Positions 16,648 through 22,715 of a stretch of 64,000 nt of DNA are shown piece after piece. The notes beneath the pieces are model-generated. The model was not told where the DNA came from and ran no database searches. It worked only from the letters and a program-made list of their open reading frames with translations. The translations under genes and the position numbers were made by a program. Source of the stretch: Agrococcus jejuensis (GTDB taxonomy: Bacteria > Actinomycetota > Actinomycetes > Actinomycetales > Microbacteriaceae); NCBI RefSeq assembly GCF_900099705.1, contig NZ_LT629695.1:2542001-2606000 (forward strand), given 5' to 3'. Position 1 is the first letter of the stretch; each line of letters begins with the position of its first letter.

Positions 16648-17916
16648 GTGACGAGCGCCCGCATCGACTCCGCTGCGTTCCAGGACGCATGGCCGCAGGT
16701 CGTGCGCGCCCTCGCGGCCGCGACCGGGTCGATCGACGAGGGCGAGGAGCTCGCCGCCGAGGCGTTCGCGCGCGCGTCCGCGCTGGCCGAGGCGCCCGCA
16801 TCCCTCGTCGGCTGGTGCATCGCCGTGGGGCGGCGCGCCGCGATCGACGCCGCTCGGCGCCGCGCCACCGAGCGCGGCGCGCTGCCGGCGCTGCACGACG
16901 AGTCGACGGGAGGTGCGCGCATGTCGGCGATCGACGACCGCGTCGCGCTGCTCGTCGTCGCGTGCGACGAGCTGCTGGCGCCCGCGTCGCGCATGGTGCT
17001 CGCGATGCGGCTCGTGCTCGGCATCGACGTCGACGCCATCGCCGCGCACCTCGGGCTCGAGCGCGGCGCTGCCGCCGCCCGGCTCACGCGAGCGAAGCGG
17101 CAGCTCGCGTCGCAGCGCGGGGCCTTCGCGGTGCCGACGGGGGACGAGCGAGCGCGCCGCATGCCCGTGGTGCTCGACTGCGTGCACGGTCTCGTCGCGA
17201 TCGGGCAGCGGCTCGCGATCGACCCCGACGACGCGCTCGGCGACCTCGTCGGGCACGCCGAGTCGCTCGCCGAGGCGCTCGTGCGCGAACGACCGCGCGA
17301 CGCCGAGGCCCGCGCCGTGCTCGCCATCGCGCGCCTCGCCCTCGCGCGGCGGCCCGGCCGCGTCGTCGACGGCGTCGCCGTGCCGCCCGAGGAGGTGGAT
17401 CGCCGCAGGTGGGATGCGCGCAGGCTCGGCCTGGGCGTCGACGACGCGCTCGCCGCCGCGGGGCTCGCGGGCGACGACCCCGGCCGCTTCGCGCTCGAGG
17501 CCCGGATCGCCGCGCTGCACTCCGCGGCGCCGACCGCGTGGGATGTGCCGTGGGCGCTCGTCGCCCGCCTGCACGGCGCCGTCGAGGCGCGCTGGCCCGC
17601 GCGGTCGGCGACCCTCTCCCGCCTCGTCGCGGAGGCGTACGCGCTGCTCGTCGAGGCGGGGCTGCCGACCGCGCCCGGCGGTCGGCTGCCGTCCGCGCCC
17701 GACGGGCTCGAGCGCATCCTCGCCGACGTCGCCGCCCTCGACGACGGCGCTCGCGCCACGCGCCGCGACGTCGCGCTCGTCGCCGCGGACCTCGCGTGGC
17801 GCACCTCGGCGCCCGACGCCGTCGACCGCTACCGCGCGCTCGCGGCGCTGCTCGCCGACGACGCCATCGCATCCGACCCGATCCGAGCCTTCTGCGAGCG
17901 ACGCGCCCACGGGTGA
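16648..17916 (+). CDS. ECF sigma factor, ECF42-like with long C-terminal extension
   Basis: 422 aa. Sigma region 2 covers about residues 1-75 with the LVGWCIAVGRRAAIDAARRR helix end. Sigma region 4 (about 100-150) has a helix-turn-helix around DAIAAHLGLERGAAAARLTRAK. A roughly 270-residue alanine-rich helical extension follows, as in ECF42 factors, where a TPR-like tail replaces an anti-sigma factor. The GTG at 16648 is taken because sigma region 2 begins right after it. The adjacent DGPF gene and its TGTCGA-type promoter support the group assignment. Confidence 0.83.
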   Translation: MTSARIDSAAFQDAWPQVVRALAAATGSIDEGEELAAEAFARASALAEAPASLVGWCIAVGRRAAIDAARRRATERGALPALHDESTGGARMSAIDDRVALLVVACDELLAPASRMVLAMRLVLGIDVDAIAAHLGLERGAAAARLTRAKRQLASQRGAFAVPTGDERARRMPVVLDCVHGLVAIGQRLAIDPDDALGDLVGHAESLAEALVRERPRDAEARAVLAIARLALARRPGRVVDGVAVPPEEVDRRRWDARRLGLGVDDALAAAGLAGDDPGRFALEARIAALHSAAPTAWDVPWALVARLHGAVEARWPARSATLSRLVAEAYALLVEAGLPTAPGGRLPSAPDGLERILADVAALDDGARATRRDVALVAADLAWRTSAPDAVDRYRALAALLADDAIASDPIRAFCERRAHG

Positions 17917-17964
17917 GAGAGATTCACGCGCGCCCGTCGATAGCGTCGAGGCAGGGGGACGCGC

Positions 17965-19044
17965 ATGGGGTTCGGATCGACGCCGGCGCTCACGGCGATC
18001 GCGGTCGCGGTGGGGGTCACGGTGCTCGTCTGGGTGCCCGCATCCATCCTGCTGCTGCGTCGGCGGGGACGGCTCGACTGGCGCACGGCGTCGCTGTCGA
18101 TCGGCGCGCTCGCCTACGCGTGCGCCGTGATCGTCGCGACGCTCTTCCCCACGGGCGCGTGCTATCTGCCCTTCACGGCGCAGCTCGTGCCGGGTGCATC
18201 GGTGCTCGACGTGCTCGAGCAGGGCGGCATCGCGCTGTCGAACCCCGCGCTGCGGCAGATGCTGCTCACGGTGCTGCTGTTCGTGCCGCTCGGCATGCTC
18301 GTGCGGCGCCGCGGCCGGCCGGGCATCGTCGCGACCGTCGCGATCGGCCTCGGCGTCGCGGCGCTCGTCGAGGTGACGCAGCTCACCGGCACGTTCGGCC
18401 TCGCCGCCTGCCAGTACCGGCTGTTCGACGTCGACGACGTGCTGCTCGGTGGCGTGGGCGCGCTCGTCGGCGGCCTCGCGGCGCCGCTCGTGCGGCGGCT
18501 GCCCGGGCAGTCCGACGCGCGACTCCACGCGCTGCCGCAGCCGCTCACGGCGCGGCGCCGGCTCGGCGCGATGGCGATCGACGTCGGCGTCTCGATCGGC
18601 ATCGGCGGCGCCGTCATGGTGCTGGGGATCGGCGGCGTCGGCCTCGTGGTGCTGCTGACGTCGGGCTCGGAGCGCGAGGCGCCCGTCGCGCTCGTCAACG
18701 CGATCGGTGTCGTGGTCGGCGCATCCGGGGCCCTCGCCGCCGCGATCGTGCACCTGCTCGTCGTGCTGCGCACGGGTCGCACCGTCGGCGAGCTCGCCGG
18801 CTCGCTCGATGCGCGCCGCGAGACGGGGGAGCCCGCCGGCATCGGCCGCCGCGCCGCCCGCTGGGCGCTCGGCATCGGCGGCTGGACCCTCCTGTCGGCG
18901 TTCGCCTTCGACCCGGTGACGCAGTCACTCGCCGTCCTCTGGGCGGCGGCGGCGATCGTGCTGGCCTTCCGCTCCCGCGCCCACTCGGGCCTCCCCCTCC
19001 GCCTCACGCGCCAGCTCGCGAGGGACGCGCGCGACCCCCGCTGA
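17965..19044 (+). CDS. VanZ-like and RDD two-domain membrane protein
   Basis: 359 aa, rich in membrane helices. Residues about 1-175 resemble VanZ: a helix, a loop with FPTGACYLPFTAQL, then LLFVPLGMLVRRR, and the VEVTQLTG...CQYRLFDVDDVLLG signature. Residues about 190-325 form an RDD domain, starting with an Arg/Asp-containing helix (ARRRLGAMAIDVG) and the RTVGELAGSL segment. VanZ proteins are linked to teicoplanin or lipoglycopeptide tolerance, while RDD domains occur in transporters and unknown membrane proteins. A GCAGGGGGA ribosome-binding region precedes the ATG. The function of the fusion is not known. Confidence 0.82.
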   Translation: MGFGSTPALTAIAVAVGVTVLVWVPASILLLRRRGRLDWRTASLSIGALAYACAVIVATLFPTGACYLPFTAQLVPGASVLDVLEQGGIALSNPALRQMLLTVLLFVPLGMLVRRRGRPGIVATVAIGLGVAALVEVTQLTGTFGLAACQYRLFDVDDVLLGGVGALVGGLAAPLVRRLPGQSDARLHALPQPLTARRRLGAMAIDVGVSIGIGGAVMVLGIGGVGLVVLLTSGSEREAPVALVNAIGVVVGASGALAAAIVHLLVVLRTGRTVGELAGSLDARRETGEPAGIGRRAARWALGIGGWTLLSAFAFDPVTQSLAVLWAAAAIVLAFRSRAHSGLPLRLTRQLARDARDPR

Positions 19045-19065
19045 CCCCTCCCGTCTGCTGGCCGC

Positions 19066-19140
19066 TTGCGTTTTGCAGGCGATCAGGGGTGGCAGAGGGG
19101 TATCTTCCCTCTGCCCATGCTGATCGCCTGCAAAACGCAA
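19066..19140. repeat. Hairpin repeat, copy 1 (left of the DUF559 gene)
   Basis: 75 nt. The outer arms 19066-19086 and 19120-19140 are a perfect 21-bp inverted repeat beginning TTGCGTTTTGCAGGCG. After a 4x4 internal loop, a second perfect 9-bp stem (GGCAGAGGG 19091-19099 with CCCTCTGCC 19107-19115) closes on a 7-nt loop. It begins 22 bases after the VanZ-RDD stop. The same sequence recurs at 20128-20199 with a single difference over 72 nt. There is no U-run as in an intrinsic terminator. Confidence 0.9.
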
Positions 19141-19238
19141 TGGAGTCGCGGTTCCACAGGTCGGTGAGGTCGTGAGTCGTCCACAGCTGCGCCCAGGGCG
19201 ACGGCTGACCGTGGTCGGTCCGAGGCATCCTCCGCGAC

Positions 19239-20111
19239 ATGGAAGTGGAGCAGGCGCTCGAGTCGTTGGGCGGCATCGCGAGCCTCGAGCAGATGCGTGC
19301 CCGAGGGATCGGCCGTGCCGAGATCCTCGAGGCGCGGCGCAGGGCGACGGTGTTCAAGGTGCGGCGCGGATGGTGCGCCCTCCGCACCGCGGATGCGCAG
19401 CTCGTCGCGGCCGTGCGCATCCGTGGCCAGGCGACGTGCATCACCGCGACCCGCGCGCTCGGGCTCTGGACCTTCGACGATGGTCGGTTGCACGTCGCGG
19501 TGCCGGGCAACGGATCTCGACTGAACCCTCGCGTCGAGGGCGCACCGCCCGCGCATCTCGACGCATCCGTGCTCGTGCACTGGCGTGCGCGTACCGCCGC
19601 GCCGACGATGGCGCGTCAGCCCCTGCGCGAGGTGGTGCAGCACGTCGTCGAATGCCAACCGCCGGAGCTCGCGCTCGCGGTGCTCGACTCGGCAGTGCAT
19701 GAGGGCAGGTGCTCGCTCGACTGGCTCCGGCGCACCCTCGATGGCACGGCTCGGGGGCGGATGCTCGCCGCCGAGGTCGATCCCGGCGCGGGTGCTGGTG
19801 GCGAGAGCATCGTGCGGTGGCGCCTGCGCCAGGAGGGCATCCGGGTGCGGACGCAGGTCTGGATCGACGGGCTGGGCCCGCGGGACTTCGTCGTCGGAGA
19901 CCGTCTGGTCGTCGAGATCGACGGCCGCGAGCATCACGCGCTCGTCGAAGGCTTCGCGCGCGACCGATGGCTCGACAGGGAGCTGCAGCTGCGGGGCTAC
20001 GACGTCCTGCGCTTCACGTACGCGGAGGTGCTGCACGACTGGCCGCGCGTGCTCGCCGACATCCGACGCATGGTCAGCGTCGACCGCCATCGCACGCGCG
20101 CCGGCCGCTGA
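19239..20111 (+). CDS. DUF559 (Vsr-like PD-(D/E)XK) nuclease-type protein with AbiEi-like N-terminus
   Basis: 290 aa. Residues about 5-50 look like the winged-helix start of AbiEi-type proteins (GGIASLEQM...ATVFKVRRGWCAL). Residues about 185-280 match DUF559, related to the very-short-patch endonuclease fold: Glu189, then GPRDFVV (Asp216), VVEIDGREHH (Glu226, Asp228), RDRWLDRELQLRGYDVLRF. The middle has no recognised domain. Codon use is somewhat less biased than in neighbours. Two near-identical hairpin repeats lie 98 bases upstream and 16 bases downstream. It may be a self-mobilising or repeat-processing nuclease; a defence or regulatory role is also possible. Confidence 0.8.
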   Translation: MEVEQALESLGGIASLEQMRARGIGRAEILEARRRATVFKVRRGWCALRTADAQLVAAVRIRGQATCITATRALGLWTFDDGRLHVAVPGNGSRLNPRVEGAPPAHLDASVLVHWRARTAAPTMARQPLREVVQHVVECQPPELALAVLDSAVHEGRCSLDWLRRTLDGTARGRMLAAEVDPGAGAGGESIVRWRLRQEGIRVRTQVWIDGLGPRDFVVGDRLVVEIDGREHHALVEGFARDRWLDRELQLRGYDVLRFTYAEVLHDWPRVLADIRRMVSVDRHRTRAGR

Positions 20112-20127
20112 CCGACGGCGATGGGGT

Positions 20128-20199
20128 TTGCGTTCTGCAGGCGATCAGGGGTGGCAGAGGGGTATCTTCCCTCTGCCCATGCTGATCGCCTGCAAAACG
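20128..20199. repeat. Hairpin repeat, copy 2 (right of the DUF559 gene)
   Basis: 72 nt, same orientation as copy 1 and identical except for one base in the left arm (C for T at 20135). Outer arms and the inner 9-bp stem are conserved; the last three bases of the right arm diverge (TAG instead of CAA). It starts 16 bases after the nuclease stop and ends 14 bases before the stop of the convergent carboxylase gene. Confidence 0.9.
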
Positions 20200-20213
20200 T
20201 AGAACCGTCAGGG

Positions 20214-21983
20214 TCAGGCGGCGTCGGCGTCGGCGATCACCAGCAGGCGGTGGCCGCTCGAGATCGTCGTGCCGATGGGGGCGTCGAGGCCCGTCACGAC
20301 GCCGTCGCGCGGCGCCTGGATCGGCTGCTCCATCTTCATGGCCTCGAGCACGACGAGCAGGTCGCCGGCGACGACGTGCTGGCCCTCCTCGACGGCGACC
20401 TTCACGACCGTGGCCTGCATGGGGGATGCGATGGTGCCGCCGGTCGCGCCGCCGGCGGCCGCGATGCGCGTGCGGCGCGGGGCAGGGCCCTTGGTGGCGA
20501 CGGTCTCGGGGAAGAGGCGGGCGGGCATCGACACGGCGATGCGCTTGCCGTCGGCCTCGACGACGACCTCGCGGCGCGCCTCGGGGCCGCCGAGCTCGCC
20601 GGCCTCGCCACCCCAGCGCGGGATGTCGTTGACGAACTCCGACTCGATCCACGACGTGTAGATCGAGAACGGCTCGCCGTCGGCGGGCGCGAAGGCCGGG
20701 TCGTCGACGACGACGCGGTGGAAGGGCAGCACGGTCGGCAGACCCTCGACGCGGAACTCCGCGAGTGCGCGGCGCGAGCGCTCGAGCGCCTCCTCGCGCG
20801 TCGCGCCGGTCACGATGAGCTTCGCGAGCAGCGAGTCGAACTGGCCGCCGATGACGTCGCCCGAGACGACGCCGGAGTCGACGCGCACGCCGGGGCCGGT
20901 GGCGGGCACGAACTGGTGCACGGGGCCGGGCGCGGGGATGAAGCCGGCGCCGGCATCCTCGCCGTTGATGCGGAACTCGAACGAGTGGCCCTGCACGACG
21001 GGGTCCGGGTAGTCGAGCACGCCGCCTGCGGCGAGGCGGAACTGCTCGCGCACGAGGTCGATGCCCGTGACCTCCTCGGACACGGGGTGCTCGACCTGGA
21101 GGCGCGTGTTGACCTCGAGGAACGAGATGGTGCCGTCGCGGCCGACGAGGAACTCGCACGTGCCGGCGCCGACGTAGCCGACCTCCTTGAGGATGGCCTT
21201 CGACGACTCGTAGAGGCGCGCGACCTGGTCGTCGGTGAGGAAGGGCGCGGGCGCCTCCTCGACGAGCTTCTGGTGGCGGCGCTGCAGCGAGCAGTCGCGC
21301 GTCGACACGACGACGACGTTGCCGTGCGCGTCGGCGAGGCACTGCGTCTCGACGTGGCGGGGGCGGTCGAGGTACTTCTCGACGAAGCACTCGCCGCGGC
21401 CGAACGCCGCGATGGCCTCGCGCGTCGCGGAGTCGAAGAGCTCGGGGATCTCCTCGCGCGTGCGGGCGACCTTGAGTCCGCGGCCGCCGCCGCCGAACGC
21501 CGCCTTGATGGCGACGGGCAGGCCCACCTCGTCGGCGAACGCGACGACCTCGTCCGCGGTCTCGACGGGGTTGAGCGTGCCGGGGGCGAGGGGAGCGCCG
21601 ACCTTCTCGGCGATGTGGCGGGCCGAGACCTTGTCGCCGAGCTGCTCGATGGCGTCGGGGCTCGGGCCGATCCAGGTGATGCCGGCGTCGATGACGGCCC
21701 GGGCGAAGTCGGCGTTCTCGGCGAGGAAGCCGTAGCCGGGGTGCACGGCGTCGGCGCCGGAGCGGCGGGCGACCGAGAGGATCTTCTCGATCACGAGGTA
21801 CGACTCGGCGCTCGTCGACCCGTGCAGCGAGTAGGCCTCGTCGGCGAGCTGCACGTGCTGCGCGTCGCGGTCGGGCTCTGCGTAGACGGCGACGCTGCCG
21901 ATCCCCGCATCCCGGGCTGCTCGGACGACTCGGACGGCGATCTCGCCACGATTGGCGACGAGGACCTTCGTGATGGGGGGCAT
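20214..21983 (-). CDS. accA3: Acyl-CoA carboxylase alpha chain (biotin carboxylase plus biotin carrier)
   Basis: 589 aa. The biotin carboxylase part (about 1-450) shows [12 protein letters not shown] at the start, an ATP-grasp glycine loop [11 protein letters not shown], and the [12 protein letters not shown] active-site segment. A linker leads to a C-terminal biotinyl domain with EAMKMEQ, the biotinylated lysine being Lys550. The enzyme carboxylates biotin for transfer by beta subunits to acetyl- or propionyl-CoA, feeding fatty-acid synthesis. Its likely partners AccD and AccE and the biotin ligase are encoded about 14-18 kb away. The ATG at 21983 is 8 bases from a TAGGCT box. Confidence 0.93.
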
Positions 21984-21991
21984 GAAGATCG

Positions 21992-21997
21992 AGCCTA
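21992..21997 (-). promoter_or_regulatory. -10-like box of the carboxylase alpha gene
   Basis: TAGGCT on the minus strand, 8 bases from the ATG at 21983, with no Shine-Dalgarno. Divergent from the TetR promoter about 100 bases away. Confidence 0.4.
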
Positions 21998-22096
21998 CGC
22001 GAGCGCGGATGCGTGCTCTCGGCGGACACCGACAACGCGCGGGGCGGATCCGTTGCCGATCTCCACAGGCGCGGCGGATGGTGAGGACCACCTGCG

Positions 22097-22125
22097 TTGC
22101 GGAGTGAGTGCTCACTCAGTAGCAT
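22097..22125 (+). promoter_or_regulatory. Promoter of the TetR-ABC exporter operon
   Basis: TTGCGG (22097-22102), a 17-base spacer, then TAGCAT (22120-22125), 8 bases before the GTG at 22134. The -35/-10 spacing is canonical and the spacer is filled by a palindromic operator, so repression by steric block is expected. Confidence 0.6.
22102..22117. promoter_or_regulatory. TetR-type operator palindrome
   Basis: GAGTGAG (22102-22108), a 2-base centre TG, then CTCACTC (22111-22117): a perfect 7-bp inverted repeat lying between the -35 and -10 boxes of the regulator gene. TGAGTG/CACTCA half-sites are common for TetR regulators of ABC exporters. Confidence 0.65.
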
Positions 22126-22133
22126 CGAGCACC

Positions 22134-22715
22134 GTGGCCCCACCGACTCGCATGACGCTCGAGGACCGCCAGGTGCAGATCCTCGACGCCATCGTCCCCG
22201 TCGTGCTCGAGCACGGCGCGGCGATCACCTCCCGCCAGCTCGCCGACGCCGCAGGCGTCGCCGAGGGCACCCTGTTCCGCTCGTTCGGCGACAAGGACTC
22301 GCTGCTGCGCGCCCTGTTCGACCGCACGGCCGAGGTCGCCTACGACCTCGCCGACCTCGAGGATCTCGCCGATGCGACCCTCGAGACCACCGTCAGCGCG
22401 ATCGCCGGCGTGCTCACCGTGCGCTTCTCGGCCATCTTCCAGATGGCGATCGCGCTCGGCCCCATCCTGCTCGCCGAGGGCAAGCGCGACGACCCCCGCT
22501 TCGACGAGCTGCGCGACCGCATCGCCGCGCTGCTCGCCGAGCACGCCGACGAGCTCGCCGTCGCCCCTCCCGTCGCGGCCGACGCGCTGCGCACGCTGAC
22601 GTTCGCCGCCGCGACGGGCTGGGGCGACCGCAGCGCCATGGACATGTCAGACGTCACCGGCATCCTCTTGCACGGGATCGCCCGCACCGACACCCGGAAG
22701 GAGAGCCGCGCATGA
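22134..22715 (+). CDS. TetR-family transcriptional regulator
   Basis: 193 aa. The N-terminal helix-turn-helix (about residues 10-57) contains TSRQLADAAGVAEGTLFRSFGDKDSL, described here by its TSRQLADAAGV and LFRSFGDK parts. The C-terminal ligand domain has no assigned ligand. The GTG at 22134 is preferred because the promoter places transcription start there; an ATG at 22152 is the alternative. Its stop overlaps the first exporter gene (ATGA), so it almost certainly controls the exporter and itself through the operator at 22102-22117. Confidence 0.88.
   Translation: MAPPTRMTLEDRQVQILDAIVPVVLEHGAAITSRQLADAAGVAEGTLFRSFGDKDSLLRALFDRTAEVAYDLADLEDLADATLETTVSAIAGVLTVRFSAIFQMAIALGPILLAEGKRDDPRFDELRDRIAALLAEHADELAVAPPVAADALRTLTFAAATGWGDRSAMDMSDVTGILLHGIARTDTRKESRA

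Follow-up and report, generated by a model that had tools for sequence, protein, structure and literature searches.

The window, a 64,000-nt stretch of the Agrococcus jejuensis genome, contains a putative nuclease gene flanked on each side by a copy of a long palindrome. The features of this locus are as follows:

19066..19140: upstream palindrome, subtype A, with 34-nt arms and a 7-nt loop, ending 98 bp 5′ of the gene start
19239..20111, plus strand: AbiEi-like/DUF559 (EDxHD-Vsr fold) nuclease gene, an intact ORF of 290 aa with a DUF559 match and a predicted fold
19239..19781, plus strand: N-terminal AbiEi-like winged-helix half (residues 1-181)
19788..20093, plus strand: nuclease domain (residues 184-285)
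20128..20199: downstream palindrome, subtype A, 71/72 identical to the upstream copy, 16 bp 3′ of the stop codon

As the initial annotation had described, the segments 19066-19137 and 20128-20199 are direct repeats of 72 nt with one mismatch, and their starts are 1062 nt apart. Each copy is a near-perfect palindrome (arms 19066-19099 and 19107-19140 of 34 nt each, 88% complementary, with a 7-nt loop), and the element reaches about 75 nt when extended beyond 72 nt. Folding of the two flanks as single-stranded DNA gave z values of -10.1 and -9.0, with none of 200 shuffles equally stable. The flank-to-flank alignment of this gene scored 139, compared with at most 38 for the other genes predicted in the window (24 scored) and a median of 28 for all 25, based on a crude GC3-heuristic gene caller. 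The best result of an Rfam scan of 17500-22500 was a microRNA model, far under its gathering score (E 0.12).

The protein matched the DUF559 profile with 35.5 bits (cut-off 20.6) and AbiEi_4 below the cut-off (E 0.042). The DUF559/Vsr-like fold and AbiEi-like N-terminus first proposed from the sequence are supported by these matches and by the predicted structure, in which the gene product is shown as an AbiEi-like half fused to a nuclease domain of the EDxHD/Vsr type. The putative catalytic-type residues E189, D216, E226, D228, H233 and D242 are invariant across 28 Agrococcus-genus proteins, and the product is likely a DNA-cutting enzyme. According to a profile search, the gene is neighboured by those for a VanZ/RDD protein and a biotin carboxylase; no AbiEii nucleotidyltransferase was found at these two adjoining positions. 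The former neighbour (17965-19044, 359 aa) unites VanZ-like and RDD domains in one protein. The suggestion of a RAYT-like layout with a different enzyme is also supported: Y1_Tnp (PF01797), the Y1 class being the only one searched, was not found in the whole A. jejuensis genome and was present in 5 of 14 control genomes.

The palindrome is not confined to this locus. A DNA search of the A. jejuensis genome found 44 distinct places matching it (76 matches on both strands), and lone hairpins away from the gene are dispersed both in this genome and in those of relatives. In the window and the stretches fetched round the matches, at least 53 hairpins were counted at at least 39 sites, of which 25 were single and 14 were doublets; these are lower bounds, as the family model gives further places outside the stretches counted. 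Each of the 14 doublets pairs a subtype A with a subtype B hairpin, their starts being 83-94 nt apart. Based on a crude GC3-heuristic ORF caller, 31 of the 39 sites are intergenic, and the 35 sites with genes on both sides lie between convergent (16), tandem (13) or divergent (6) genes, so that 3′ ends are favoured. Conserved GTAG or CGTC columns were not found at the foot of the palindrome in the family alignment, where the unit is about 72 nt.

A DUF559 protein at least 58% identical to that of the window was found in 6 of 24 genus genomes, namely G000 (A. jejuensis itself), G009, G023, G001, G010 and G012; the remaining genus matches reached at most 39% identity, save one partial match of 92 residues at 43%. 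The six orthologues, from six species, adjoin the same biotin carboxylase gene. This gene is present in the other 18 genus genomes with no DUF559 match downstream (up to 1500 nt examined; 418 nt in G003). The six-genome distribution of the orthologue needs three changes on the biotin carboxylase tree, so that loss and gain are indistinguishable.

The near identity of the flanks had initially been explained by recent spread or gene conversion. Recent arrival of the window cassette is ruled out, because its orthologues share the biotin carboxylase neighbour in six species, and by this synteny the locus looks vertically inherited. The other part of the explanation fared differently. The window copies are mutual best matches (97.2% over the compared core, with 95.8% and 93.0% for the next best), and the median for 496 subtype A pairs in the stretches fetched is 85.9%. 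Because the same 97.2% is reached by two unlinked pairs, the near identity is weak evidence for concerted change at an old locus, with which it is compatible. At the same locus, both flanks are of subtype A in G000 and of subtype B in G009, as if the pair had changed together.

The repeat is tied to the gene: window-family hairpins lie on both sides of it in five of the six orthologues (G000, G009, G023, G001 and G012) and at none of 26 other genus DUF559 loci scanned. All five relatives that keep the gene have palindromes beside it. With the repeat dispersed, tied to the gene and retained beside it in relatives, none of the three results named in the initial annotation as contradicting its proposal was obtained. 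The G012 orthologue is frameshifted, and that of G001 is intact, its TGA being the natural stop. The G010 orthologue has a different palindrome on one side, with the same outermost seven bases, and a half copy at a contig end on the other. Ten places in the G010 genome (65% complete) match its own palindrome, the flank itself included. The comparison of the G010 and G001 palindromes suggests that the target may have changed together with its dispersed copies. The window-family model, with both strands searched and 150 candidates scored per genome, gave match counts, which are not copy numbers, of 123 in G000, 94 in G023, 76 in G009, 18 in G012, 14 in G015, 5 in G001, 2 each in G017, G008 and G010, and none in the 15 other genus genomes. 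The three match-richest genomes (G000, G023 and G009) all have an intact gene. Palindrome copy number does not strictly track gene intactness across the genus genomes: G001 has an intact orthologue and 5 matches, G015 has 14 and no orthologue, and G012 has 18 and a frameshifted gene. Orphan window-family hairpins were seen in genomes without the orthologue at L077 (G008), L071 (G017) and L072-L076 (G015). In G023, three loci (L063, L064 and L068) hold four or five such hairpins per ~500 nt, with subtypes A and B mixed.

Related species differ in whether a given intergenic site carries a cassette or a lone palindrome. Based on alignments, eight G000 sites lack a family hairpin in G009 (L024:5655, L031:2004, L033, L034, L037:5824, L039:12173, L045:1537 and L046), and L030, L033 and L034 lack one in G023. 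The doublets L028 and L042 are single in a relative, and the singles L022 and L035 are doubled in one. Two candidate empty sites, L041 (against G009) and L036 (against G023), were rejected since the alignment shows a diverged hairpin, and the apparent G000 hairpin at L027:100, within a conserved stretch, is likely false. The present/absent pairs, too diverged at their edges, showed neither a target-site duplication nor a sharp boundary of insertion.

Whole cassettes vary in the same way. One intergenic site holds a full paralogous cassette in G009, a lone window-family hairpin in G000 and, in G023, ~30 nt lacking both. The G000 cassette L017 has no counterpart at the syntenic site in either G009 or G023. 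The L120 cassette of G009 corresponds to a single related palindrome with no gene in G023 and to neither in G000; its upstream and downstream copies are 77% identical over 70 nt, and each is 80-84% identical to the G023 copy over 38-45 nt. Such a trace would be expected if the gene had been lost by recombination between the flanks, or gained when a cut lone palindrome was repaired. At another syntenic cassette (L271 in G009, L018 in G000), ~310 nt of the gene is missing in G009, and L271 is possibly a decay remnant. A different intergenic repeat, comprising CAGCTGGTCGAGGAG and a part with TCACGAGACCACGCGA, occupies L280 (G009) and L276 (G000), where relatives carry DUF559 cassettes; these sites seem open to several repeat families.

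Many relatives of the window gene likewise sit between copies of a long palindrome specific to the gene. Within the genus, many of the paralogues (31 loci, L086 left out) lie between matching palindromes, each set different, and some scores are low. A broad sample included 79 of 80 DUF559 loci from named genomes of Williamsia, Gordonia, Tsukamurella, Propionibacteriaceae, Microbacteriaceae and others, with one MAG labelled Acidobacteria (L118, identical to L117, was left out). The flank score was defined as the best alignment of 350 bp upstream with 350 bp downstream. It was at least 37 at 47 of the 79 loci, compared with 0.6% of 6162 mismatched pairs, and 32 loci fell under this cut. For the control gene, biotin carboxylase, the median over 24 genomes was 25 and the maximum 53, reached once. 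At 51 of 74 loci, one or both sides had, within 300 bp, a hairpin above the 95th percentile of 583 control blocks; at 22 loci both sides did (L110, L139, L148, L151 and L181 left out). Among the flank pairs listed, 18 of 24 align better as direct copies. Palindrome similarity and protein identity gave no signal of co-divergence among 348 non-syntenic Agrococcus pairs (Spearman 0.02, p 0.75).

In an independent sample of the phylum, DUF559 was present in 43 of 149 genomes, and 29 loci were tested (L294, from the A. jejuensis genome, left out). Nine loci scored at least 38, and none of 812 mismatched pairs exceeded 34. One of the nine, L290 (score 46), was set aside as a cassette, its repeat beside a short DUF559 protein being parS-like with TGTTTCACGTGAAACA, which we take to be the parS consensus. 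After its removal, 8 of 20 long proteins pass (the long L301 has 18 nt upstream) versus 0 of 8 other short ones, and on these counts the association with flanking palindromes therefore seems to belong to the long, fused DUF559 form. Only some of these loci have a shared repeat with clear self-complementarity: the score is at least 40 on at least one side for L292, L303, L308, L310 and L311, and below this for L304, L305 and L306. The DUF559 genes at L311 (G133) and L310 (G145) are flanked by short-repeat tandem arrays (CCGAAGTCTGGGACTTCGG and TGGCGTTCGCAGCCGA, respectively) and not by one long palindrome.

The palindrome of a cassette is also found elsewhere in most genomes searched, and in A. 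jejuensis mainly between genes. With 17 hairpins from 15 genomes searched against 18 genomes on both strands, up to a fixed number of candidates being scored (match counts are not copy numbers), 12 of the 15 source genomes had the hairpin also away from its gene among the matches listed. Distinct places, flanks included, numbered at least 14 in Propionicimonas, at least 13 for the A. jejuensis paralogue L017, at least 12 in Salinibacterium soli, at least 10 each in Amnibacterium and a Propionibacteriaceae MAG, at least 9 in G008 (with its own hairpin or that of the related G018), at least 8 in G017, at least 7 in Enemella, at least 6 in G018, at least 5 for the A. jejuensis paralogue L019, at least 4 in Williamsia serinedens, at least 3 in Williamsia faeni and at least 2 in Microbacterium SA39. 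In G022, at least 6 distinct places were matched by the hairpin of its relative G017. Among the matches listed, the two places in Gordonia hankookensis and the two in Agrococcus casei were the flanking pair alone, and the single place for the A. jejuensis paralogue L018 was its flank; Herbiconiux daphne had one place listed of four matches. Among the matches listed, hairpins from other genomes hit none of the genomes outside Agrococcus. A second search, in which a candidate subset was scored and G190 was set aside, found the palindrome away from the gene in five of seven genomes. For the phylum sample, this search gave 12 places in G139, 11 in G065, 10 in G148 and 8 regions in G133, tandem arrays included; G145 and G194 had copies beside the gene only.

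Based on the above results, we suggest that the locus is a palindrome–nuclease gene–palindrome cassette in which the palindrome is the recognition site of the enzyme, and cutting or nicking there leads to repair-driven spread (probability about 0.6). On this reading, the cassette would be self-mobilising. The palindrome would be a dyad-symmetric site bound by an enzyme dimer. A long dyad-symmetric palindrome fits dimer binding. For I-Bth0305I, a studied member of the fold family, a review (PMC3943268) reports dimerisation on a nearly 60-bp target, a length near that of the palindromes here. A cut or nick at the palindrome would be followed by recombination repair from another copy. Such repair could copy palindromes into cut sites, and now and then the gene too, with the flanking palindromes as homology arms. 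Repair from other copies would also help to hold the two flanks alike, and recombination between the flanks would delete the gene and leave a lone palindrome.

Other explanations account for parts of these data. The palindromes could be operators or nucleoid-binding sites, through which the AbiEi-like half regulates its own promoter and other sites, with the nuclease domain secondary or inactive. The winged helix and the mostly intergenic sites (31 of 39 by the crude ORF caller) agree with this; however, sites also lie 3′ of the gene and 3′ ends are favoured (16 convergent, 13 tandem and 6 divergent of 35), the catalytic-type residues are invariant in 28 proteins, and gain and loss of whole cassettes are not expected of operators, which makes this explanation unlikely. 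We consider it similarly doubtful that another agent moves the palindromes as MITE-like repeats, with repeats and DUF559 genes gathering at permissive intergenic sites. The same sites do hold different repeat families in different species, but the match of upstream and downstream flanks within loci and not between loci is left unexplained, as are the genomic copies of the gene's own palindrome, and a Y1 transposase, the class searched, is absent from the genome.

The similarity to AbiEi could also point to an AbiE-like defence or toxin-antitoxin unit whose palindromes mark self DNA, but the AbiEii partner is absent, the neighbours being VanZ/RDD and biotin carboxylase genes, and the paired flanking copies are unexplained; the chance of this is slim. 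It is slimmer still for transcription terminators or mRNA 3′ structures that were passively multiplied, to which the 3′-end location and strong folding would be suited, given that 18900-20400 contains no terminator-like sites with a T-run and that the hairpin sequence is gene-specific.

The cassette in full matches no known family considered, and its layout has a clear analogue in the REPtrons (RAYT/TnpA-REP with REPs/REPINs). As described in the literature (PMC3116915, PMC8266576, PMC3733652), REPtrons likewise have a nuclease gene between cognate palindromes. They too have many dispersed intergenic copies, often in doublets and favouring 3′ ends, and enzyme-palindrome pairs that differ between genomes. 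However, the REPtron enzyme is defined as a Y1/HUH tyrosine transposase, while the enzyme here combines AbiEi with the EDxHD/Vsr fold, and REPtron palindromes are 20-40 nt with a GTAG or CGTC foot, while that of the window is ~72-75 nt without such a tag. TIRtrons/TIRYTs, as described in PMC3733652, have a RAYT-like gene bracketed by longer repeats, some dispersed, as here; their enzyme is a tyrosine transposase and their repeats are long inverted ones, whereas every repeat of the cassettes is palindromic on its own, and most of the flank pairs listed align better in direct orientation.

Among enzymes of related fold, EDxHD homing endonucleases such as I-Bth0305I share the nuclease fold with the cassette protein by predicted structure. 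No intron or intein was seen around the cassette gene, whose product has the AbiEi-like half in addition. The gene of an EDxHD homing endonuclease interrupts its target; here, the palindrome, if it is the target, is intact on both sides of the gene. Compared with the Vsr mismatch endonuclease, the protein has an extra N-terminal half and the gene has flanking palindromes. The AbiEi antitoxin (type IV AbiE) differs in that here the AbiEii partner is not adjoining and a nuclease domain is fused. Thus, the lack of a full match follows from the REPtrons and AbiE each differing in a tested defining feature; the homing endonucleases may differ in how the gene lies to its target.

We lean slightly towards regarding AbiEi-DUF559 proteins as the enzymes of a second, independently evolved REPtron-like class across Actinomycetota, in which the nuclease seeds its palindromic target by cutting and repair and the target co-changes with its dispersed copies. 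The data suggest that the cassettes across Actinobacteria represent a kind of self-spreading DNA system not described so far; among the open-licence PMC papers listed, none was found to describe DUF559 or AbiEi-DUF559 together with palindromes. The common family DUF559 carries the label 'unknown function', and the palindrome partner gives it a testable substrate. If true, the problem presumed to be solved by RAYTs would have been answered a second time by an unrelated enzyme, and the multiplication of bacterial palindromic repeats would be testable by comparison. Pairs of a fast-evolving nuclease and a long target could be a source of new site-specific nucleases.

Two further observations concern individual loci. 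The palindrome of the paralogue L017 and the flanks of the G023 orthologue (L081) have the core GAGGGCGATCTTCCCTC in common and differ in their arms, so core and arms may evolve separately. In addition, one Agrococcus genome has a 4.8-kb locus with a DUF559 gene in two identical copies (L117 and L118), ~200 kb apart and in opposite orientation, which is a larger duplication and not one of the cassette alone.
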